A stretch of DNA of 39,046 bases from Acholeplasmataceae bacterium (lineage in GTDB: Bacteria > Bacillota_I > Bacilli_A > Acholeplasmatales > Acholeplasmataceae). Both the position numbers and the translations under genes were made by a program. The stretch's first letter is position 1. Every line of letters begins with the position of its first letter. The notes under the pieces were generated by a model, which ran no database searches, had not been told where the DNA came from, and saw only the letters and a list, made by a program, of their open reading frames with translations. The DNA lies in contig JAFGTQ010000012.1 in the NCBI GenBank assembly GCA_016934015.1, positions 1 through 39,046 of the forward strand, read 5' to 3'. Shown one piece after another: positions 24,863-38,864 of this stretch.

Positions 24863-24989
24863 TTTAATAGCTCCTTTCGCCTATAATCTTGTATAGACTT
24901 GCTCCATAGAAAAACCTAACACGTAGACAACGGCTATCCGTGTGTCAGCAACCTTCCATTTCACAGCCTCTTCGCGTTTACACACGAGC
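24863..24989 (-). promoter_or_regulatory. 5' leader of the S10 superoperon, candidate autoregulatory RNA
   Basis: About 128 nt separate the predicted transcription start from the rpsJ ATG, long for this compact genome. The leader can fold: CGUGUGU (24980-24986) pairs perfectly with ACACACG (24939-24945), enclosing about 34 nt. This is the place where E. coli uses an L4-binding leader. I could not match a known leader family by eye, so regulation is an inference. Confidence 0.4.
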
Positions 24990-27761: not shown

Positions 27762-27786
27762 ATAAAAAGCACTTTTTAAAGTGCTT
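27762..27786 (-). terminator. terminator after the fabT-like gene
   Basis: Stem AAGCACTTT / AAAGTGCTT, followed on the minus strand by TTTATTA. It lies just past the stop of the MarR-type gene and separates it from glcK. Confidence 0.75.
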
Positions 27787-27790
27787 AGAA

Positions 27791-28228
27791 TTAGTATCTC
27801 TGTTTAAAGTAATTGCTTATATTTTCTAATGATTTTAATAAAGTTTCATCCTTTTCGAGTTCAAGATCCTTAAAAATAGATTCAATCATCTCATCATGAA
27901 ATGCATCGTGGATTTCTAACACATTCATAGCTAAATCAGTCAATTCTACAAAGACTTTTCTTCTATCTTTATCATCTCTATATCTGATTACATATCCTTT
28001 GCGAACCAAAGCGTTTATAGATGTTGTCAATGTCCCAAGTGTAACTCTTAATTTCTGAGCAACATTTCCCATCATAGGAACATCAACATTGCGAATCGCT
28101 TCCAAGACATGAACTTCTGTCATTGAAATTTTGACTCCTTTTTCTTTAAGGATACCCGATTCAATACTTAATATGTGATTAAAAACATCAACTAACAACT
28201 CATTAATAACAACTTTAGGGGATATCAT
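27791..28228 (-). CDS. fabT: MarR-family repressor, FabT-like
   Basis: 145 aa winged-helix protein. The recognition region VTLGTLTTSINALVRKGYVI and the wing RYRDDKDRRKVFVELTD match the FabT subgroup closely (streptococcal FabT has VTLGTVTTSLNNLERKGYI and QDRRVV). KISMTEVHVLEAI at the dimer/effector helix is also FabT-like. In streptococci FabT, with acyl-ACP as corepressor, represses fatty-acid synthesis. Here the gene lies downstream of degV (11 nt, AAGGAG site), and palindromes fitting a FabT operator precede both its own operon and the acc/fab operon. It therefore probably regulates both. Confidence 0.85.
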   Translation of the reverse strand: MISPKVVINELLVDVFNHILSIESGILKEKGVKISMTEVHVLEAIRNVDVPMMGNVAQKLRVTLGTLTTSINALVRKGYVIRYRDDKDRRKVFVELTDLAMNVLEIHDAFHDEMIESIFKDLELEKDETLLKSLENISNYFKQRY

Positions 28229-28239
28229 ATTATTACTCC

Positions 28240-29091
28240 TTATAAAACAATATAACCTACACCAAGGGTTCCTGGTCCAGCATGCGCACCGACTACCGGA
28301 GTTAAGGGAACGAGTTGAATTTCAACATCGGGCTTATTTTTCAATATCTGTTGTTTAATTTCTTTTGCTTTTTCCTCATTATTGGTGTATGCAATAAACA
28401 TTATAACATGTTTATCTTTAATTTCGTTTTGAATAACTTCAATTAGTCGAGCTTGAGCTTTTGCTGTAGTTCTAATTTTTTCATAAGGGACTAAGCTTCC
28501 ATCTCTTTGAACATGAAGCAATGGTTTAATTTTTAACAAGGTACCCAAAAATCCGCTGGTTGCAGATAATCTTCCATTTTTAACTAAAAATTTAAGTGTA
28601 TCTACAAGTACATAAATATAAATGTGATCTCTTATTTTTTCAAGTCTATCGATGATTTCAACCATCTTACTACCGTTTTTAATCATTTTTATAGCTTCTA
28701 AAACTAAATAAGCTTCTCCATATGATACACTTCTGGAATCAACAACATAAATGTTAACGCCTTGAACAAGATCTTTTGCTAAAATCGCACCTTGAAACGT
28801 CCCGCTGAGTTTAGAAGAAATCACAATTGCAATAATATCAGTATATCCTTCGGCTTTCATTTCTTCATAGACTTCTGCAATCTTTCCTGTTGATGTTTGT
28901 GAAGTCGAAACGTCAATATCTGGATTAGACTCAATGATTTGATAAAACTCTTTCGCTTGTATATCGACAAAATCTTCGTATTCTTTTCCTGCAAGGTTTA
29001 ATGTTGAACGAATGAGACGGACAGGATAATCCAGTTTCATGTAGTCGACACCAGAATTTCCGCAGACAATTAAACCAATTTTTGTATTCAT
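28240..29091 (-). CDS. DegV family fatty-acid-binding protein (FakB-like)
   Basis: 283 aa. DegV hallmarks are DVSTSQTSTGKIAEVYEEM (TSQ near residue 65), VISSKLSGTFQGA, KNGRLSATSGFLGTLL with the KPLL block, and HAGPGTLGVGYI at the C-terminus. DegV/FakB proteins hold a fatty acid for phosphorylation by FakA; the conserved Ser residues and the HAGPG loop are the acyl-head contacts (family knowledge). Which fatty acid is bound cannot be read from the sequence. The ATG at 29091 has GGAGAAAG upstream; a TTG at 29112 is rejected. Cotranscription with fabT and a shared operator support a lipid role. Confidence 0.88.
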   Translation of the reverse strand: MNTKIGLIVCGNSGVDYMKLDYPVRLIRSTLNLAGKEYEDFVDIQAKEFYQIIESNPDIDVSTSQTSTGKIAEVYEEMKAEGYTDIIAIVISSKLSGTFQGAILAKDLVQGVNIYVVDSRSVSYGEAYLVLEAIKMIKNGSKMVEIIDRLEKIRDHIYIYVLVDTLKFLVKNGRLSATSGFLGTLLKIKPLLHVQRDGSLVPYEKIRTTAKAQARLIEVIQNEIKDKHVIMFIAYTNNEEKAKEIKQQILKNKPDVEIQLVPLTPVVGAHAGPGTLGVGYIVL

Positions 29092-29107
29092 TTTTTTTGC
29101 TTTCTCC

Positions 29108-29129
29108 TTCAAATATTTTGAATTTCAAA
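29108..29129 (-). promoter_or_regulatory. candidate FabT operator upstream of degV-fabT
   Basis: Three half-sites in a row on the plus strand: TTCAAA, 3 nt, TTTGAA, 1 nt, TTCAAA. This gives two overlapping perfect palindromes; the core 13-bp one is TTTGAATTTCAAA (29117-29129). It begins 15 bp downstream of the -10, in the early transcribed region, a position suited to repression. The same arrangement recurs at 38560-38581. The motif resembles the streptococcal FabT box (TTTGA ... TCAAA). Confidence 0.7.
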
Positions 29130-29144
29130 TTTTATACTGTTTTT

Positions 29145-29172
29145 ATGATAACATATTTTTTAATTATGTCAA
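29145..29172 (-). promoter_or_regulatory. promoter of the degV-fabT operon
   Basis: Minus-strand TTGACA (-35, perfect, 29167-29172), a 16-nt spacer and TATCAT (-10, 29145-29150) with an extended TGT before it. Confidence 0.7.
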
Positions 29173-29216
29173 AACAATCATAGTTATAATGCTCATATTC
29201 CTTAAATAATATGCAT

Positions 29217-29744
29217 TTAATAAAACATATTTTTGTAACTATTCAGTAATTGTTCAAGCAATTCGTTGAATAATGCTTTTAAGTCGAGAAGGTGACCTAA
29301 CTCATTATTTAACGATGTACAATCAGGCGTATTAAATAGACGTTGATTAATGTTGATTCCCACTCCAATGACAACGTAAATAAAGTGATTAGCATCTGAT
29401 AAAGCTTCAAAAAGAATTCCAGCAATTTTTCGATTTTCAACATATAAATCATTGGGTTCTTTAAATTTAGCATCAATCCCTTTTTCCTGTAGAAAACTCT
29501 TAAGTGTTGTAATCATCCAAGTTTTCAATTGCATAATTTGATGAAATTCAACATTTTTTAGTAGCAATGAAAATAATATATTCTCATAAGGTTTAGATTC
29601 CCAATGATTAGTATATTGACCTCTTCCATTTGTTTGGTAATCCGCTCTTACAAAAGTCATATGTGAAAAAGACGTGTGATTTTCCTTTAAAAAATCTGAA
29701 GTCGAATTAACCTCATTAAATTCGAGCAATGTATATGGAATCAT
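29217..29744 (-). CDS. birA: biotin--[acetyl-CoA-carboxylase] ligase, minimal catalytic form
   Basis: 175 aa. It activates biotin with ATP and attaches it to the AccB lysine. The biotinyl-AMP loop is ADYQTNGRGQYTNHW, the catalytic block KEPNDLYVENRKIAGILFE (KWPND in most enzymes) contains the essential lysine, and GVGININ follows. It is much shorter than usual (about 230-330 aa): no N-terminal DNA-binding domain and almost no C-terminal SH3-like domain, so it cannot act as a BirA-type repressor. It overlaps fabZ by 4 nt. Its position at the end of the operon containing its own substrate gene, accB, is informative. Confidence 0.9.
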   Translation of the reverse strand: MIPYTLLEFNEVNSTSDFLKENHTSFSHMTFVRADYQTNGRGQYTNHWESKPYENILFSLLLKNVEFHQIMQLKTWMITTLKSFLQEKGIDAKFKEPNDLYVENRKIAGILFEALSDANHFIYVVIGVGININQRLFNTPDCTSLNNELGHLLDLKALFNELLEQLLNSYKNMFY

Positions 29745-30166
29745 AAATTTCCAATCGCGAATGAAATTTCGGTTTCACAAACAAGTTGATCATCCACAAA
29801 AGCTTGAGCTTTTCCAAATCCAAAATTTCCACGAATTTTTGTTAATTCACAAGTTAAAATCAATTTATCTCCCGGAAGAACGCTTCGTCGAAATTTTGCA
29901 TTTTTTATTCCTGTAAAATAAGCAAGTTTTCCTGTGTAATCTGGATGAGATAAAAGAGTGATTGCTCCAACTTGTGCTAGTGATTCTATGATGATAACTC
30001 CAGGCATTACAGGAGCTTCTGGAAAATGACCTTTAAAATAATATTCATCTTCACTAATATATTTAACACCAGTCGCTTTATGTAGTGGTGTTAGTTCAAT
30101 TATTTCATCGATAAATAGAAAAGGCTCACGATGAGGAATAATTTTTTTGATGTCTTCTTTAGTCAT
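29741..30166 (-). CDS. fabZ: 3-hydroxyacyl-[ACP] dehydratase FabZ
   Basis: 141 aa hot-dog fold. Dehydrates 3-hydroxyacyl-ACP in the elongation cycle. Active-site His is in GHFPEAPVMPGVIIIESLAQ (His about residue 46, with the Glu of ESLAQ as second catalytic residue). The N-terminal PHREPFLFIDEI is typical. FabZ rather than FabA, since no FabA isomerase signature is seen. It overlaps fabF by 1 nt (TAATG) and birA by 4 nt. Confidence 0.96.
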   Translation of the reverse strand: MTKEDIKKIIPHREPFLFIDEIIELTPLHKATGVKYISEDEYYFKGHFPEAPVMPGVIIIESLAQVGAITLLSHPDYTGKLAYFTGIKNAKFRRSVLPGDKLILTCELTKIRGNFGFGKAQAFVDDQLVCETEISFAIGNL

Positions 30167-31404
30167 TATGGATTCACCTTCTTAAATATGATTGCTGCAT
30201 TTTGTCCACCAAAGCCGATATTGATGTTCATGGCGTAATCCATATCTCGATGCACGGAGTGGTTAGGTGTGTAATTTAAATCACATTCAGGATCAGGTTC
30301 ATCCAAATGAATGGTTGGTGGTATCCATCCAGTTTGTAAAGATTTAATTACCGTAATAGTTTCGATGGCACCTGCGGCTCCTAAAGCATGACCAGTCATT
30401 GATTTAGTTGAACTAATATTGACTTGGTAAGCTTGATTGCCAAATGCTTTTTTTATCCCCAGAGTCTCAAGTCGATCGTTTAATATAGTTGATGTCCCGT
30501 GTGCGTTAATGTAACCAATATCTTTAGGCTCTATCTTGGCATCGTCTAAGGCATTTTTAATACAAGCGGTAATCCCTTTCGCTTCTTCATCCGGAGAGGT
30601 CATATGATAAGCATCTGTCGTTGTCCCATATCCTACCATCTCTGCTAAAATCGTTGCACCTCGATTGATTGCATGTTCGTAGGCTTCTAAAATCAGGATT
30701 CCTGAGCCTTCTGCAATCACAAAGCCTGATCGTCTTCGATCAAAGGGCGTAGATGCAACTTCGGGGTCGTTTGAAAAATTAAGTGCTTTTAAACTTGAAA
30801 ACCCCCCAACACCTAATTCATTGATTGGGGCTTCTGATCCACCGGTTATGGCAATATCAATATATCCATCACGAATGTACCTAAAGGCTTCTCCAATTGA
30901 ATTGGTTGCTGCTGAACAAGCCGTGACTTGTGGTAAATTGGGGCCATATGCTTGATATTCGATACCGATTTTCGCACCAATAAGATTAATAATTGAGTTA
31001 GGTATAAAGAATGGTGATATTCGGTCTTGCCCTTTTATGACGCTTTTTTTTGTCTCTTCAAAAATGGTATTAAGTCCACCAATTCCACTGCCAACAAAAA
31101 TTCCAAATCTTTGTCGATCAATTAAGGCATCATAAAGATTTGCTTGCCGGTAAGCTTCTTGGGTTGCAACCATTGCTAAATTAGTAACACGATCTGATCT
31201 TCGTGCTTCTTTTCCATCTAAAAAGTCTTCAAAATTAATATTTTTAACTTCACCTGCAATTTTTACTTTCCAGTTTGATGCATCCGATAATGTTATAAAA
31301 TCAATCCCGTTTTTCCCATTAATTAGATTTTGGAAAGATTCTTCTACGGTATGACCTACTGGACTTAAAAGCCCCATACCGGTCACTACTACGCGTCTTT
31401 TCAT
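30166..31404 (-). CDS. fabF: 3-oxoacyl-[ACP] synthase II
   Basis: 412 aa condensing enzyme that extends acyl-ACP with malonyl-ACP. The Cys-His-His triad is Cys in VTACSAATNSIGEA, His in NAHGTSTILNDRLE (usually STPLND) and His in KSMTGHALGAAGAIE. The N-terminus is MKRRVVVTGMGLLSPVGHTV. It is the only KAS I/II type enzyme in the operon; FabH starts the cycle. Start ATG at 31404 with GGGGGA upstream, 10 nt after fabG. Confidence 0.97.
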   Translation of the reverse strand: MKRRVVVTGMGLLSPVGHTVEESFQNLINGKNGIDFITLSDASNWKVKIAGEVKNINFEDFLDGKEARRSDRVTNLAMVATQEAYRQANLYDALIDRQRFGIFVGSGIGGLNTIFEETKKSVIKGQDRISPFFIPNSIINLIGAKIGIEYQAYGPNLPQVTACSAATNSIGEAFRYIRDGYIDIAITGGSEAPINELGVGGFSSLKALNFSNDPEVASTPFDRRRSGFVIAEGSGILILEAYEHAINRGATILAEMVGYGTTTDAYHMTSPDEEAKGITACIKNALDDAKIEPKDIGYINAHGTSTILNDRLETLGIKKAFGNQAYQVNISSTKSMTGHALGAAGAIETITVIKSLQTGWIPPTIHLDEPDPECDLNYTPNHSVHRDMDYAMNINIGFGGQNAAIIFKKVNP

Positions 31405-31414
31405 AAAATTCCCC

Positions 31415-32158
31415 CTACATGACTAACCCGCCATCAACCTCTAAGGTATGACCGGTAATGTATGATGCTTCTTCAGATGCTAAGAAGCATACTGCATAAG
31501 CTACTTCTTTTGCATCTCCAAATCGATTTAAAGGAATTTGCTTTTTCCACTGCTCAATCATTTCAATGGGAATTTTTTTAGTCATTTCTGTCTCGATGAA
31601 CCCAGGAGCTATTGAGTTCACGGTGACCCCTCTTCCTGCAAATTCACGTGCTAATGCTTTTGTTAATCCAATCACACCAGCTTTAGCTGAACTATAATTT
31701 GATTGTCCAGCATTTCCCATGACTCCAGATACACTTGAAATATTGATGATTCGCCCATATCCAGATTTCAATAAAGGTTTTGATGCATGTTTGCATATAT
31801 TCCAAACACCTTTTAAATTTGTACTGATCACACGATCAAACTGATCTTCATTCATCCTTAAAATAAGTGCATCATCTGTAATGCCTGCGTTATTAACTAC
31901 AATATTTAATGTTCCAAATGTTTCAATTGTTTGACGAATGAGTTTTTCTGCATCTAAATATTTTGATATATCAGCTTGAATTGCCAGTGCTTTCCCACCA
32001 ATTTTTTCAATTTCAGAGACTACTTCACGCGATTCAATTTCACTTCGATTAAAATTAATAACGACGAAAGCACCTCTTCTTGCTAATTCAAGTGAAATAT
32101 ATCGCCCTATACCGTGTGCTCCTCCGGTTACAAGAGCTACTTTATTTTTCAAATCCAT
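31415..32158 (-). CDS. fabG: 3-oxoacyl-[ACP] reductase
   Basis: 247 aa short-chain dehydrogenase. NADP-binding TGGAHGIGRYISLELA, the structural NNAG (VVNNAGITDD), Ser in NISSVSGVMGNAGQ and the YxxxK pair in NYSSAKAGVIGLTKALA complete the catalytic tetrad. The C-terminal TGHTLEVDGGLVM is typical FabG. It overlaps fabD by 17 nt, and an AAAGGATGG site lies within fabD. Confidence 0.97.
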   Translation of the reverse strand: MDLKNKVALVTGGAHGIGRYISLELARRGAFVVINFNRSEIESREVVSEIEKIGGKALAIQADISKYLDAEKLIRQTIETFGTLNIVVNNAGITDDALILRMNEDQFDRVISTNLKGVWNICKHASKPLLKSGYGRIINISSVSGVMGNAGQSNYSSAKAGVIGLTKALAREFAGRGVTVNSIAPGFIETEMTKKIPIEMIEQWKKQIPLNRFGDAKEVAYAVCFLASEEASYITGHTLEVDGGLVM

Positions 32159-33083
32159 GTTTCAATAACCATCCTTTCACATGCTCTATATCATTGATGT
32201 TTGATAAGTTTGTCACTTCAAGATTGCCATCTATTTTCTTTAATTGTGCACTCAATACATTCCCTGGTCCCACCTCAATAAAATGGGTGAATCCATCGTT
32301 AATCATTTGCTTAATAGATTGCATAAATAAAACAGGGGAGAAAATTTGTTTCATCATATCTTCTTTAATATCTTTAATGTTTAATAATTCACTAGTCGTA
32401 TTCAAATAAACTGCCTTAGTAGGTAAATTAACCTCGATCGGTTTGATGTATTCATAAAACTTTAGTGCTGCGTTTTTCATTAAAGGAGAATGAAAAGCTC
32501 CGGATACATTCAAAATGATTGTTCGCTTAGCTCCTTCTCGAATACATAATTTTATCGCATCATCAACTGCATCTTCTTCTCCGCTAATGACAGTTTGAAA
32601 AGGTGAGTTGAAATTCGCACAAACTACTTTTTCAGATTTAATCCCGTGGCAGATCTGATTAACAATGTTTGAATCTAGACCTACGATAGCAGCCATTTTT
32701 CCTCGATGAATACTTGCTTCATGGTTCATTAAAAATCCTCGGTGCTGAACCATCATTAATAGATCTTTAAACGAAAATATGTTGGCTGCATAAAAAGCTG
32801 CGTATTCTCCTAGACTAAAACCTAGTGCTCCTTCAATCGATTCAGTATATTTGATTAACTCATCAAATGCAAAAATAGTTGATAAGAATACTAACGGTTG
32901 TGTAAAGACTGTTTGATTTAATTCATCGGATGAAAAACTCAGTTTTTGTTTCACATCATAACCCAGTATGATTGATGCTTCATCTAGTATTTGCTGAGTT
33001 TGTTGATTGATACTACAAAAATCTAATCCCATACCTAGATATTGTGAACCTTGTCCTGCAAAGACGACACCTAATTTGCTCAT
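32142..33083 (-). CDS. fabD: malonyl-CoA:ACP transacylase
   Basis: 313 aa. Transfers malonyl from CoA to ACP. Begins with GVVFAGQGSQYLGMGLD. The nucleophile Ser lies in ALGFSLGEYAA, where the common GHSLG is changed to GFSLG; the catalytic Ser is kept. The partner His is in SGAFHSPLMKNA. The oxyanion Gln is in the first block. It overlaps fabK by 4 nt (ATGA) and fabG by 17 nt. Confidence 0.95.
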   Translation of the reverse strand: MSKLGVVFAGQGSQYLGMGLDFCSINQQTQQILDEASIILGYDVKQKLSFSSDELNQTVFTQPLVFLSTIFAFDELIKYTESIEGALGFSLGEYAAFYAANIFSFKDLLMMVQHRGFLMNHEASIHRGKMAAIVGLDSNIVNQICHGIKSEKVVCANFNSPFQTVISGEEDAVDDAIKLCIREGAKRTIILNVSGAFHSPLMKNAALKFYEYIKPIEVNLPTKAVYLNTTSELLNIKDIKEDMMKQIFSPVLFMQSIKQMINDGFTHFIEVGPGNVLSAQLKKIDGNLEVTNLSNINDIEHVKGWLLKHGFEK

Positions 33084-34015
33084 TTGATGACTTCCAACTG
33101 TTTTCGATAATCATCAACATGATCAAAAAGAGATTTTATGACTTCAGATACAGGTTTAATCTCTTTAACCAATCCAGCGATTTGACCTGCCATAAATGAT
33201 CCTGAATCTAAATCTCCATCAAACACAGCACGTCGAAGTGATCCTAAAGTTAATTTCTCTAATTCTTCAAGTCCAATGCCTTCTGAAGAAAGACGTACAT
33301 ATTCAACCGCCATTCTATTTTTCAAAACTCGAACTGGGGCACCAGTCCCTCGACCAGTTACAATCGTATCTGTATCTTTTGCTTGAATTACTTTTTGTTT
33401 ATAGTTCTCATGAATTGGACATTCTTGAGTTGCTAATAAAACTGTTCCTACTTGTACTCCTTTAGCTCCTAATGCGAATGCAGCAAGAACTCCTCGCTGG
33501 TCAGCGATACCACCAGCTGCAATCACAGGAATTTTTACTGCATCACAAATTTGTGGAATAATCGCCATGGTTGTAAGTTCTCCAATATGTCCACCTGATT
33601 CAGTACCTTCAGCGACTATCGCATCAGCTCCTTGTCTTTCCATTCGAATGGCTAATGCAACGGATGGGACAACCGGAATAACAATGATTCCAGCTTGTTT
33701 CCATAATTCCATGTATTTACCAGGTGAACCCGCACCAGTCGTGACTACTTTGACACCTTCTTCAACCACCATGTGTGCAATATTTTCCGCATGTGGACTC
33801 ATCAGCATGATATTGACACCAAATGGTTTATCCGTCATCAATCTACATTTTCTAATTTCATTTCTGACCCACTCGGTATCATAACCTCCTGCACCGATTA
33901 AACCTAGTGCTCCTGCATTTGAAACTGCAGCAGCTAATTGTGCAGTTGCTACATTGGCCATTCCACCTTGAATCAATGGATATTCTATACCTAATAATTC
34001 ACATATATTTTTCAT
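33080..34015 (-). CDS. fabK: enoyl-[ACP] reductase II (FMN-dependent)
   Basis: 311 aa TIM-barrel flavoprotein related to nitronate monooxygenase. Begins MKNICELLGIEYPLIQGGMA and has the FMN-phosphate region AEGTESGGHIGELTTMAI and AAGGIADQRGVLAAFALGA. Inside a fab operon this is FabK, which performs the last reduction in elongation; FabK is naturally insensitive to triclosan, unlike FabI (family knowledge). The ATG at 34015 has GGAGG 5 nt upstream; a TTG at 34018 is one codon earlier and rejected. Confidence 0.95.
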   Translation of the reverse strand: MKNICELLGIEYPLIQGGMANVATAQLAAAVSNAGALGLIGAGGYDTEWVRNEIRKCRLMTDKPFGVNIMLMSPHAENIAHMVVEEGVKVVTTGAGSPGKYMELWKQAGIIVIPVVPSVALAIRMERQGADAIVAEGTESGGHIGELTTMAIIPQICDAVKIPVIAAGGIADQRGVLAAFALGAKGVQVGTVLLATQECPIHENYKQKVIQAKDTDTIVTGRGTGAPVRVLKNRMAVEYVRLSSEGIGLEELEKLTLGSLRRAVFDGDLDSGSFMAGQIAGLVKEIKPVSEVIKSLFDHVDDYRKQLEVIK

Positions 34016-34024
34016 CAAATCCTC

Positions 34025-34960
34025 CTAAAATTGCAATATTGCAGATCCCCAAGTAAATCCCCCACCAAAACCAACCAGTAATATTTTCTGATTCGTGATA
34101 TTATGCTTTTCTAAATATTCGGCAATCGTTATAGGGATACTTGCTGCAGACGTGTTGCCATATTCACTGATATTTAGCATAAATTTATTCATCGGAATTC
34201 CTGATGATTTTGAAACACTTTGGATAATTCTTTCATTTGCTTGATGGGGAATGATCATATGGATATCATCCATGGTTAAATTAGCAACATCAAGAATTTT
34301 ATGAATGCTTTTTTCCATAATATCAACAGCGAATTGATATACCTTTTTCCCATCCATAAAAATCTTATCGATAACCGTTAAAGTGTTATTTTTATCCGGA
34401 TAAGCTGCATTATAAAAATATGCTCTGTCCTGTTCTTTTTGACTAGGTTCAATAATCATAGCCCCTGCACCATCGCCAAATAAGACACATGTGTTTCGAT
34501 CTGTATAATCAATGACTTTCGATAGTTTTTCTCCACCAATAATTAAAGCTGAACGAAATCGCCCGGTTTGTAACATCGACGAAGCAATTTCAAGAGCATA
34601 AACAAATCCTGTACATGCTGCATTAATATCAAAGCTCATCACTTGATGTTCAAGACCGAGTTTTGCTTGAATAAAATTTGCAGTAGAAGGCGTGAATTGA
34701 TCACCGGTAATGGTTGCCATGATGATTAAATCAATTTTTGTTTGATCATAGTTTGCTTTCTCAATCGCATCGATTGCTGCATAATACGCCATATCAGATG
34801 TTAATTCATTAATTGCTTTTCTTCGTCGTTTAATACCTGTACGTGTTGTAATCCAATCATCAGATGTATCAACCAATTTTTCTAGATCTTGATTGGTTAC
34901 GATATGAGGAGGAATATACTTCCCGGTGGATATAATTTTAATCATCGGTTGCTTGATCAT
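34025..34960 (-). CDS. fabH: 3-oxoacyl-[ACP] synthase III
   Basis: 311 aa. It condenses acetyl- or short branched-CoA with malonyl-ACP to start synthesis. The Cys-His-Asn triad is Cys in DINAACTGFVYALE, His in IIPHQANERII and Asn in EYGNTSAASIPI. The C-terminal GFGGGFTWGSAILQF is typical. The ATG at 34960, with AGGAG 6 nt upstream inside accA, is preferred over the ATG at 34945. In streptococci acpP follows fabH; here fabK follows directly after 9 nt. Confidence 0.96.
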   Translation of the reverse strand: MIKQPMIKIISTGKYIPPHIVTNQDLEKLVDTSDDWITTRTGIKRRRKAINELTSDMAYYAAIDAIEKANYDQTKIDLIIMATITGDQFTPSTANFIQAKLGLEHQVMSFDINAACTGFVYALEIASSMLQTGRFRSALIIGGEKLSKVIDYTDRNTCVLFGDGAGAMIIEPSQKEQDRAYFYNAAYPDKNNTLTVIDKIFMDGKKVYQFAVDIMEKSIHKILDVANLTMDDIHMIIPHQANERIIQSVSKSSGIPMNKFMLNISEYGNTSAASIPITIAEYLEKHNITNQKILLVGFGGGFTWGSAILQF

Positions 34961-35768
34961 GTGCTGCTCCTATCTCATTAAAGATACCTATTTTTCTATA
35001 TTTTTTGTATCGTAAATCAAGTAATTTAGCATCACTCAATTTCGATAATTTCTTAAGTGTTTTTGTTAACTCAATTTTTAAATCTTGAATTGATTTGTCA
35101 GGATCAACATGAAGTCCTTCATACTCAGGAATCATGAAATCAATAATTTTATAATTCAGCAAATCTTCGGCTGTTAGTTTCATAATAGACGCAGCATATT
35201 CGGCTTTCGATGCATCTTTATAAACGATGGATGCGAACCCCTCAGGTGATAATATGGCATAAATGCTATTTTCAAACATCATAATATGGTCGCCTACTCC
35301 AATCGCAATTGCTCCACCTGAACCTCCTTCGCTTAGAACTAAAACGATGATAGGTGTCTTTAGACCTATCATTTGTTCTAAGTTACTTGCAATGGCTTGA
35401 GCTTGACCTCTCTCTTCTGCTTCAATGCCGGGATATGCTCCTGGTGTATCGATGATACATAAGATGGGTCTCTTAAACTTCTCAGCTTGTTTCATAATTC
35501 GCATTGCTTTTCGATACCCTTCGGGATGAGGCATTCCAAAATTATGAAATATTTTATCTTCTGTGGAAGTTCCTTTTTCTTCAGCAATAATTGTGATAGG
35601 TTGTCCATTAAACGTTCCTATGCCACATACAATCGCTTTGTCATCACCAAAATTACGATCACCGTGAAGTTCAATAAAATCGTTAATCAAAGATTTAATC
35701 ACAAATTGGCTCGTTGGACGATGGGGATGTCTAGCGAGTTTAACTTTATCCCATGCGTTAAGACTCAT
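34938..35768 (-). CDS. accA: acetyl-CoA carboxylase carboxyltransferase subunit alpha
   Basis: 276 aa. With AccD it transfers CO2 from carboxybiotin to acetyl-CoA. The crotonase-like core has DTPGAYPGIEAEERGQAQAI and LVLSEGGSGGAIAIGVGD, followed by AILSPEGFASI. Shorter than E. coli AccA (319 aa) because it lacks part of the N-terminal helical extension, as in Gram-positive relatives. It overlaps accD by 11 nt and fabH by 23 nt; AAGGAG precedes the ATG. Confidence 0.96.
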   Translation of the reverse strand: MSLNAWDKVKLARHPHRPTSQFVIKSLINDFIELHGDRNFGDDKAIVCGIGTFNGQPITIIAEEKGTSTEDKIFHNFGMPHPEGYRKAMRIMKQAEKFKRPILCIIDTPGAYPGIEAEERGQAQAIASNLEQMIGLKTPIIVLVLSEGGSGGAIAIGVGDHIMMFENSIYAILSPEGFASIVYKDASKAEYAASIMKLTAEDLLNYKIIDFMIPEYEGLHVDPDKSIQDLKIELTKTLKKLSKLSDAKLLDLRYKKYRKIGIFNEIGAAHDQATDD

Positions 35769-36645
35769 GTGTTTTCTCCTTGCTTTGATGAAGTTTCAAT
35801 AATTGATACAACGTCTTTCGCATTTCAGTTCGATGAATGACTAAATCAACTTGTCCGTGATTTAGTTGAAATTGATCGGTTTGAAAGCCTTCAGGTAATT
35901 CTTGTCTTATCGTTTGTTTGATAACTCGTGCTCCGGCAAAACCAATAAGTGATGATTTTTCTGCAATATTAATATCACCAAGTGATGCAAAACTAGCTGC
36001 TACACCGCCTGTTGTTGGATTAGTCATGACACTAATATATAAAAGCCCTTTTTGATTAAAATAGTGTAATGCTGCAGATGTTTTTATCATTTGCATCAAC
36101 GAAAAAATCCCTTCTTGCATCCGTGCTCCACCTGATGCTGAAAATATGATGAGAGGAAGTTTCTTTTTTGTCGCAAATTCAATCAGTCGAGTAACTTTTT
36201 CACCTACTGCACTGCCCATGCTGCCCATCATAAAATAGCTATCGAGTATTCCAATTGCACAGGGAAATCCTGCAATCGATGCTGTTCCTGAAACAAATGC
36301 TTCTTCTTGATTTGAAAGCTTCTGCCCTAAACGTATTTTTTCTTCATACTCAGGCATATTCAATGGATTAGTTGATGTGACTGTCGAATCAATTTCCTCA
36401 AATGAACCTTGATCTACGGTCAAAGATAGTCTTCTTTCTGCACCTAATCGAAAATGATAATCGCAGTATGGACAAATTGAATGGTTAGCTTCAAGAGCTT
36501 TCTCGTATAGTGCAGCTCCACATTGATCACACTTGATAAATATTCCTTCAGGTATATTTATCGGATCAACACTCACATTCTTTTTACGAATGTTTTTATT
36601 AAATGCCTCTAATTTTTCTTTCCGCTTATTGATAAAGTCATTCAC
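35758..36645 (-). CDS. accD: acetyl-CoA carboxylase carboxyltransferase subunit beta
   Basis: 295 aa. The N-terminal four-Cys zinc finger is intact: CDQC at the start of CDQCGAALYEKALEANHSIC and the second pair in CPYC. The carboxyltransferase core has SASGGARMQEGIFSLMQM and VMTNPTTGGVAASFA. The start is a GTG at 36645 (reading MNDFINKRKEK), with TGGAGG 9 nt upstream inside accC. Further upstream the frame is open but overlaps accC. It overlaps accC by 8 nt. Confidence 0.94.
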   Translation of the reverse strand: MNDFINKRKEKLEAFNKNIRKKNVSVDPINIPEGIFIKCDQCGAALYEKALEANHSICPYCDYHFRLGAERRLSLTVDQGSFEEIDSTVTSTNPLNMPEYEEKIRLGQKLSNQEEAFVSGTASIAGFPCAIGILDSYFMMGSMGSAVGEKVTRLIEFATKKKLPLIIFSASGGARMQEGIFSLMQMIKTSAALHYFNQKGLLYISVMTNPTTGGVAASFASLGDINIAEKSSLIGFAGARVIKQTIRQELPEGFQTDQFQLNHGQVDLVIHRTEMRKTLYQLLKLHQSKEKTHES

Positions 36646-38002
36646 GTCTTTCAGCCTCCACAAGAGTATTAAACCGCGTGATAAAACCTGTGTCATATTG
36701 ACCTTTGATAAAACTTGTATTATGCATAATTAAATATTGATATTCAATATTCGTTGAAATGCCTTCGACTACAAACTGTTCAAGAGCAACTCTCATCTTT
36801 TTAATCGCTTCTTTACGTGTTGGTGCATGAACAATGAGTTTAGCCAACATTGAATCATAGAATGGTGGTACTTCATATCCAGGAAAAATGTGTGTATCGA
36901 TACGCACTCCATTCCCTCCTGGAAATAAGATATTTGTAATTTTACCTGGTGATGGTGCAAATCCATTAAAAGCATCTTCAGCATTAATTCTACATTCAAT
37001 CGCATGACCATTAATTTTAAGATCTTTTTGTTTAAAAGATAATTCATTACCGTACGCAATGCGTATCTGTTCTTTCACAAGATCAATACCTGTAATAATC
37101 TCAGTTATCGGATGCTCAACTTGAATTCTAGTGTTCATTTCAATAAAGTAGTAATTTCCTTTATTGTCAATTAAGAATTCAATGGTACCTGCATTTATAT
37201 ATCCAATGGCTTTTGCTATTTTTATAGCAGCTGCACAAATTTTTTTTCTTAGAACATCGTTTAGTATTGGTGATGGTGCTTCTTCAATCATTTTTTGATT
37301 TCGTCGTTGCATTGAACAATCTCTTTCAAATAAATGAACGATATTACCAAAAGTATCTGCGATAAGTTGTATTTCTATATGGCGTGGTGCCTCAATATAT
37401 TTTTCAATATAGAGAGATTGATCACCAAAAGATGTTAAAGCTTCTAGTGATGTACGTTCAAAAGCACTCAAAAATTCTTCATTTGAGCGCACAATACTTA
37501 TACCACGACCACCACCACCTGAGGAAGCTTTAATCATGACAGGGTATCCAATTCTTTTCGCAATTTTCAGCCCTTCTTGGAAAGACTCAATAATACCGTC
37601 ACTGCCTTCAATAATGGGTACACCATTCGCTTTTGCAATTTTGCGAGCTGATGCTTTATCGCCAATCATCGCAATCGTTTTGGCTTTAGGACCAATGAAT
37701 TTTAACTGGCAACTTTCAACCATTTCAACAAACTCATGATTTTCAGATAAAAAACCGTATCCAGGATGAATTGCATTGCATCCTGTTGATATGGCCGCTG
37801 ATAAAACATGATTCATATTGAGATAAGATTCTTTACTTGAATTTCCACCGACACAAATGCTCTCATCCGCTAATTTCACATGAAGACTATCCTGATCTGC
37901 AGTTGAATAGATGGCTACCGTTTCAATACCCAGTTCTTTTGCAGCTCTGATAATCCGGATCGCAATCTCTCCTCGATTGGCTACGAGTATTTTATTCTTC
38001 AT
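36638..38002 (-). CDS. accC: acetyl-CoA carboxylase biotin carboxylase subunit
   Basis: 454 aa ATP-grasp enzyme that carboxylates biotin on AccB. Begins MKNKILVANRGEIAIRIIRA. The ATP-binding glycine loop is ASSGGGGRGISIV, and the catalytic IEMNTRIQVEHPITE and ECRINAED blocks are present. The ATG at 38002 overlaps the end of accB by 11 nt. A frame extending to 38056 runs into accB and is rejected. No strong Shine-Dalgarno is seen, suggesting coupling to accB. Confidence 0.97.
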   Translation of the reverse strand: MKNKILVANRGEIAIRIIRAAKELGIETVAIYSTADQDSLHVKLADESICVGGNSSKESYLNMNHVLSAAISTGCNAIHPGYGFLSENHEFVEMVESCQLKFIGPKAKTIAMIGDKASARKIAKANGVPIIEGSDGIIESFQEGLKIAKRIGYPVMIKASSGGGGRGISIVRSNEEFLSAFERTSLEALTSFGDQSLYIEKYIEAPRHIEIQLIADTFGNIVHLFERDCSMQRRNQKMIEEAPSPILNDVLRKKICAAAIKIAKAIGYINAGTIEFLIDNKGNYYFIEMNTRIQVEHPITEIITGIDLVKEQIRIAYGNELSFKQKDLKINGHAIECRINAEDAFNGFAPSPGKITNILFPGGNGVRIDTHIFPGYEVPPFYDSMLAKLIVHAPTRKEAIKKMRVALEQFVVEGISTNIEYQYLIMHNTSFIKGQYDTGFITRFNTLVEAERRE

Positions 38003-38435
38003 GGTCTTTATCGATCTGAATGAGATGATGATTGAACCCAACGGTGTCTCCATCATTTACAAGTATTTCCTTGACAGTTCCATTGTAAGGTGATGTAATT
38101 TCATTCATAATTTTCATAGCTTCAATAATACAAACTACTTGTCCTTTTGTAACCTTTTGTCCAACTTCAACATATGGTTTCCCCTTAGGTGTAGATGAAG
38201 CATAAAAAGTCCCCACAAGTGGTGATTTAATCAGATTATGATTTTGTTGGGTTATTGTTATGGATTCTTTATCTTTAATGTTTGATGTTGAATTAGAAGA
38301 CTTTTCTTTTTCAAATAATTCGCTCGTTTTGTTTTTAGATAACCTAAGTTTGAAATCTTCTGTTTCAAGTTCAAGGATTGTCAGTTGAGATTTCTCAAAG
38401 TCTTTAATAATGTTCTGAATTTCTTTAAGTGTCAT
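37992..38435 (-). CDS. accB: acetyl-CoA carboxylase biotin carboxyl carrier protein
   Basis: 147 aa. The C-terminal biotinyl domain has the modified lysine in EAMKIMNEI (about residue 112) and the AccB-type thumb TFYASSTPKGKPYVEVGQ. The N-terminal helix MTLKEIQNIIKDFEKSQ is a standard carboxylase-docking segment, followed by a Ser/Lys/Asn-rich linker (about 40-65). It is the first gene of the 11-gene acc/fab operon, with an untranslated leader of about 150 nt and no convincing Shine-Dalgarno (only AAAGAAAGAATC nearby). Confidence 0.96.
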   Translation of the reverse strand: MTLKEIQNIIKDFEKSQLTILELETEDFKLRLSKNKTSELFEKEKSSNSTSNIKDKESITITQQNHNLIKSPLVGTFYASSTPKGKPYVEVGQKVTKGQVVCIIEAMKIMNEITSPYNGTVKEILVNDGDTVGFNHHLIQIDKDHEE

Positions 38436-38559
38436 CGTCTTAGATTCTTTCTTTAGTTTTTTAAATAAATAATATCAATATCGGTCTTTTAATAAATTTT
38501 TATGGGTTAAATTAAACGTCTATCATACATTGATTCACAAAAATTTGTTTTATTTGTAT

Positions 38560-38581
38560 TTCAAATGTTTTGAATTTCAAA
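38560..38581 (-). promoter_or_regulatory. candidate FabT operator upstream of the acc/fab operon
   Basis: Same composite site as at 29108-29129: TTCAAA, 3 nt, TTTGAA, 1 nt, TTCAAA, differing by one base in the 3-nt spacer (TGT against TAT). It is followed in both copies by TTTTAT. It starts 16 bp downstream of the -10, nearly the same as the 15 bp at degV. Confidence 0.75.
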
Positions 38582-38597
38582 TTTTATTACTAGTGCT

Positions 38598-38625
38598 ATT
38601 ATATCACATCTTAGTCGATTGTCAA
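38598..38625 (-). promoter_or_regulatory. strong promoter of the acc/fab operon
   Basis: Minus-strand TTGACA (-35, 38620-38625), a 16-nt spacer ending TGA and TATAAT (-10, 38598-38603): both hexamers perfect, plus an extended -10 TGn. Confidence 0.8.
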
Positions 38626-38678
38626 ACTGACAAAACGATCGAATAATCCTGATAAATAGTATTATAAAAAACTATCAG

Positions 38679-38693
38679 ATCATTTAAAATGAT
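38679..38693. repeat. 15-bp perfect palindrome upstream of the acc/fab promoter
   Basis: ATCATTT, A, AAATGAT. It overlaps the first copy of the direct repeat and lies about 55 bp upstream of the -35 box. A second operator type or a weak terminator is possible; the role is unknown. Confidence 0.45.
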
Positions 38694-38701
38694 TTGTTTT
38701 T
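38684..38701. repeat. 18-bp direct repeat, copy 1
   Basis: TTAAAATGATTTGTTTTT, identical to 38818-38835, 134 bp apart. AT-rich but too long for an easy chance match in 150 bp. No function assigned. Confidence 0.5.
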
Positions 38702-38817
38702 TTAAAAAGCAATATTTTATTTTGATTGTTAATGTTTTACCCCAAACCTTTGTATGATTGGTCCAAATCAGATATGCTAGTTTCGTATGTATTCACAGTA
38801 TTCGATTGTTGGTAATT

Positions 38818-38835
38818 TTAAAATGATTTGTTTTT
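38818..38835. repeat. 18-bp direct repeat, copy 2
   Basis: TTAAAATGATTTGTTTTT, identical to 38684-38701. This copy does not carry the palindromic extension. Confidence 0.5.
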
Positions 38836-38864
38836 GTAGGCATTTATTTTTACCCTAATATAAT

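Follow-up and report, generated by a model that had tools for sequence, protein, structure and literature searches.

The DNA analysed here (hereafter the window; 39,046 nt of contig JAFGTQ010000012.1 from an Acholeplasmataceae bacterium) carries on its minus strand an operon for fatty-acid synthesis, acc/fab, followed by a two-gene operon in which degV, encoding a FakB-like fatty-acid-binding protein, is coupled to fabT, encoding a regulator of the MarR family (Table 1). The gene for acyl carrier protein (ACP), acpP, is not inside the acc/fab operon. Downstream of each of the two promoters lies one copy of the 22-mer TTTGAAATTCAAAAYATTTGAA, at 38560-38581 and 29108-29129, the two copies differing at a single position (minus-strand reading, TTTGAAATTCAAAACATTTGAA and TTTGAAATTCAAAATATTTGAA, respectively). 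On the plus strand, the copy near fab consists of the half-sites TTCAAA (38560-38565), TTTGAA (38569-38574), and TTCAAA (38576-38581), separated by spacers of 3 and 1 nt, and the same layout is repeated at 29108-29129. The core of the 22-mer is a 13-bp FabT box, TTTGA-N3-TCAAA. At the fab promoter only, a fourth half-site (38553-38557), absent from the original prediction, completes a second 13-bp box with one mismatch, which is why this promoter holds four half-sites; at the degV promoter, the right arm of the corresponding second box, TTTGAAGGAGAAA, is the Shine-Dalgarno sequence of degV. The trio of half-sites, its near-identity at both sites, and its placement 15-16 nt after the -10 of strong promoters had been noted in an earlier reading of the same DNA (the original prediction) and were confirmed on the window sequence, the promoter hexamers being near-consensus.

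Table 1. Features of the acc/fab and degV-fabT operons; positions are those of the window.
Feature	Position	Strand	Details
acc/fab promoter	38598..38625	-	TTGACA-16-TATAAT, 12/12 hexamer match, TG before -10
Primary FabT box, acc/fab promoter	38569..38581	-	TTTGAAATTCAAA, 10/10 match to TTTGANNNTCAAA; 16 nt past -10
Second, imperfect box, acc/fab	38553..38565	-	TTTGAAATACAAA, one mismatch; 16 bp downstream, centre to centre
acc/fab operon	29217..38435	-	accB, accC, accD, accA, fabH, fabK, fabD, fabG, fabF, fabZ, birA
degV-fabT promoter	29145..29172	-	TTGACA-16-TATCAT, 11/12 hexamer match, TG before -10
Primary FabT box, degV-fabT promoter	29117..29129	-	TTTGAAATTCAAA; 15 nt past -10
Degenerate second box, degV	29101..29113	-	TTTGAAGGAGAAA; left half-site TTTGAA (29108-29113) fused to Shine-Dalgarno GGAG
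degV, FakB-like fatty-acid-binding protein	28240..29091	-	ATG at 29091; DegV domain
fabT, MarR-family regulator	27791..28228	-	begins 11 nt after degV
Terminator-like hairpin after fabT	27767..27786	-	

When up to three mismatches were allowed, the chance expectation for the 22-mer in the window was 0.02, and none of 100 shuffles reached two copies. At the same threshold, pattern searches of the whole source genome (assembly of 1.17 Mb, 83% complete) returned the two window copies and nothing else, that is, only the two promoters named in the original prediction, and the reversed-pattern control gave no match to the 22-mer. The exact 13-bp box occurred 14 times in the genome (control: 5); 10 of these lie within open reading frames (ORFs), two are the window operators, one precedes acpP, and one is in another intergenic region. 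Thus, the motif is not common across unrelated intergenic regions, an outcome that would have spoken against the predicted operators.

The MarR-family protein, which had been proposed as the regulator of both promoters, matched the Pfam MarR model above cut-off, and its top NCBIfam model was FabT (E 3.9e-32, 111.4 bits). Its top match in the PDB was the fatty acid biosynthesis regulator 6jbx (E 8e-21), from which its recognition helix (VTLGTxTTSxNxLxRKGY) hardly differs, and the histidines of the HDxFH motif are retained in nearly all of 30 FabT orthologues. The palindrome published for pneumococcal FabT, ANTTTGACTGTNAAATT or TTTGA-N3-TNAAA (PMC8406281), is present in the promoter of the regulator's own gene (29117-29129) and in the fab promoter (38569-38581). 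The NCBIfam and PDB matches support the proposed assignment.

Related loci, mostly from Acholeplasmataceae (including Acholeplasma laidlawii, A. oculi, and A. granularum), carry conserved copies of the box. The degV-fabT gene order was found in all 30 loci examined, 24 of them with a perfect box no more than 60 nt from degV, and the fab operons of 25 related loci have a perfect box ahead of them, at the same place as in the window. Three genomes that bear accB (G060, G047, and G038) have neither a FabT orthologue nor a perfect box at the fab operon. The geometry of the palindrome and this co-occurrence of box and FabT across the family support the idea that both promoters carry FabT-type operators. 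Very probably, therefore, both window sites serve a FabT-type repressor as operators, with the perfect box mediating repression and the second box being weaker. Three observations weigh against this view. The FabT score of 111.4 bits falls short of the curated NCBIfam equivalog cut-off of 200, for which reason the protein is referred to here as a FabT-type orthologue or homologue and not formally assigned to FabT; five or six of the related degV loci have no perfect box; and several genera (g21 and g10 among them) lack the second box, so that cooperative binding would not be general.

FabT is known to repress the fab genes and its own transcription (PMC13046290), and acyl-ACP, its co-repressor, enhances its binding to DNA (PMC9083066). 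By analogy, a FabT dimer, most likely carrying long-chain acyl-ACP, would bind the perfect 13-bp box just past the transcription start; with starts placed according to the -10, the bound complex would span ∼+10 to +23 and block promoter escape at both operons. If FabT represses both promoters in this way, fatty-acid supply would lower acc/fab-dependent synthesis as well as the amounts of the FakB-like protein and of FabT itself. A second dimer might then occupy the weaker box 16 bp downstream, beside the first, repression becoming stronger as FabT-acyl-ACP rises. At degV, all that remains of the second box appears to be a single half-site joined to the ribosome-binding site.

The near-identity of the two operators may also be a matter of descent, the fab operon having been placed between tRNA-Phe and degV behind a promoter and operator of the degV type. 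Such a history, possible although the balance tips somewhat against it, concerns only the origin of the sites and is compatible with their function as FabT operators. In two congeners of the same genus (G001 and G002), tRNA-Phe is followed by one ORF of ∼225 aa and then by degV-fabT, and the interval between tRNA-Phe and degV (L123, L124; compare window 29156-38864) contains this unrelated ORF instead of the fab operon. The 50 nt preceding the window fab box scored 17, 14, 14, 12, and 12 (with one outlier of 6.5) against sister degV promoters, versus 7.5, 7.5, 6.5, and 6.5 against sister fab promoters. This likeness to degV-type promoters, together with the different content of the interval in the congeners, suggests that the fab operon arrived behind a degV-type promoter. 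However, the stretch compared is short and AT-rich, the window degV promoter scored about equally with both promoter types, and the fab genes look native, FabF being 81% identical to that of G028 and G036. A strict swap of the fab and degV promoters was considered and rejected as only half supported, again because the window degV promoter resembles both types about equally. A family search with the ∼225-aa ORF of G002 gave no match, and no remnant of the congeners' ORF was found upstream of the window's fab promoter.

Neither accB nor fabK nor fabF was found elsewhere in G001 and G002; as these assemblies are only 83-87% complete, genome-wide absence of the fab genes is likely, not proven. In G046 (99% complete), accB and fabF are absent and the boxes at degV and acpP are kept. 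ACP is retained in all three genomes, in which FabT could only serve the route for exogenous fatty acids.

As judged from the arrangement of half-sites, the operator boxes repeat in tandem with a period of 16 bp, the first being perfect and the next weaker. Among the relatives, TTTGA (at most one mismatch) recurs at the 16-bp offset in 11 of 25 fab operators and in 15 of 24 degV operators, compared with 0-4 for the other offsets tested. A matching right arm (at least 4/5) is present in 11 of 25 fab operators, but among the 24 degV operators just two have one. None of the relatives' fab promoters has a perfect second box, and the degV operator of G036 has two perfect boxes plus one half. As 16 bp correspond to ∼1.5 helical turns, the second box lies on the other face of the helix; a strong site with a weaker neighbor on the opposite face would thus be available to two dimers.

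It was considered that the primary box alone is functional, and that the third half-site arises incidentally from the Shine-Dalgarno sequence at degV and from the AT-rich leader at fab. The overlap of TTTGAAGGAG with the ribosome-binding site agrees with this, as does the absence of the extra half-site from several genera that have a good primary box. On the other hand, a by-product would hardly place TTTGA at one exact offset and add a CAAA arm in 11 of the 25 fab promoters, which have no Shine-Dalgarno sequence there, or yield the complete tandem repeat at degV of G036, which makes this explanation unlikely, if far from negligible. The original prediction had instead read the three half-sites, which both promoters do hold, as two overlapping dimer positions with a common middle half-site, permitting exclusive or graded binding. 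This part of it did not stand and is very improbable: the second site it presupposes, TTCAAA-N3-TTTGAA, is an everted repeat pointing outward, unlike the FabT palindrome TTTGA-N3-TNAAA, and the fourth half-site at the fab promoter completes a canonical box. A shared central half-site was rejected because of this orientation and because the extra half-site is conserved solely at the 16-bp tandem offset.

Beside the two window operators, acpP appears to be a FabT target. In the source genome, it is located on a separate contig (G000:C45:11109-11333), and the perfect box TTTGACCCTCAAA is found at G000:C45:11400-11412 (L115, L125, L133), 9 nt upstream of the acpP -35. Of 29 FabT-positive genomes, 17 had a perfect box in front of acpP, compared with none of 21 FabT-negative ones (Fisher p 7.6e-6; p 0.015 on hand-counted genera), values that overstate independence because the genomes are related; the chance of a perfect box is ∼0.002 per 200 bp. 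Despite the fact that the genome has two further MarR-like genes, it is highly implausible that one of these paralogues occupies the boxes in place of the linked FabT, because box and fabT are cis-linked in 24 of 30 loci and the acpP box follows the presence of FabT.

The acpP box is separated from the -35 by 8-9 nt in four genomes and by 16-19 nt in another thirteen, and by 10-15 nt in none with a perfect box. It centres at ∼-51 or at -59 to -62, positions that differ by about one helical turn, and the concentration in helical phase is modest but present (p 0.026 over six genera). Such a placement would fit an activator contacting RNA polymerase, or else a protein blocking an upstream element. 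Tentatively, and with the odds rather against it, FabT of Acholeplasmataceae may be a dual regulator that represses acc/fab and fakB-fabT from past the -10 and activates acpP from upstream of the -35. If so, fatty-acid supply would shut down synthesis and yet maintain the ACP carrier, FabT's own co-repressor partner, and this upkeep of acpP would extend to lineages that have lost fatty-acid synthesis. The acpP box offers a clear test of whether FabT can activate.

The FabT regulator is known from streptococci, enterococci, and lactococci (PMC10138225). With the regulon of these Lactobacillales (Streptococcus pneumoniae, Enterococcus faecalis, and Lactococcus lactis), the system described here shares the MarR-family FabT, TTTGA-N3-TNAAA in fab promoters, autoregulation, and the fab operon as a target (PMC8406281, PMC9083066, PMC13046290), the last two being predicted here; the window box also has the same geometry as the pneumococcal palindrome (PMC8406281). 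In contrast to the Lactobacillales arrangement, fabT is not the first gene of the fab operon but follows the FakB-like degV in an operon of its own, the fab operon is under a separate promoter, the 16-bp boxes are in tandem, and a further box lies upstream of the acpP -35. The FabT regulon of E. faecalis excludes acpB, plsX, and fakAB (PMC13046290). In Streptococcus pyogenes, fakB4 is controlled by FabT, and in both cases a DegV/FakB protein would be governed through a promoter-near box (PMC10138225); however, fakB4 is a lone target, whereas here degV shares an operon with fabT in each of the 30 loci examined. A promoter and regulon map of A. laidlawii likewise contains predicted transcription-factor sites (28), several of them for membrane metabolism; its main text makes no mention of a FabT, MarR, or fatty-acid regulon, and its supplementary table may list the box (PMC5138195). 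What emerges from sequence comparison is thus a probable FabT regulon in Acholeplasmataceae whose regulator and box are of kinds already known. In the searchable papers, there is no description of FabT in this host family, of its coupling to degV, of the tandem boxes, or of the box position at acpP, with the proviso that the supplement of PMC5138195 may list the motif. The conserved box, regulator, and targets would extend FabT to a family with the wall-less Acholeplasma among its members, and they point to a different wiring, in which a FakB-like gene, instead of the fab operon, is the partner of fabT, and in which the degV-fabT module persists even in genomes that yielded no genes for fatty-acid synthesis.

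The degV product matched DegV with 259 bits and the FakB1 model with 215 bits (cut-off 350). Only ∼44 bp separate birA from the degV promoter (window 29172-29217). A search of the minus strand in this interval gave no terminator-like site, and it is therefore possible that transcription runs on from fab into degV-fabT. The window's fab leader showed no structured RNA (fold z +1.05; no Rfam match at the leader), and elsewhere in the window an S10-Clostridia ribosomal-protein leader was matched at 24877-24972 (36.6 bits; gathering score 35.1). An Rfam search of the relatives' fab leaders returned nothing relevant. The fab leaders of genus g3 (L083:1266-1500, L084, L085, and L086) are conserved over ∼235 nt and have a long predicted stem, which the window's leader lacks, with several two-sided changes among the four sequences; they had no Rfam match, and their folding energy was not unusual. 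Further promoter-placed perfect boxes in relatives precede a FabK/nitronate-monooxygenase-like gene (L223, L227), a second DegV gene (L230), and a fabH-like gene (L240), all named from their translations only. Finally, CcpA (cre)-like sequences occur near promoters of the putative FabT regulon, namely, upstream of acpP (L141, L143, L144) and of accB (L084, L085).
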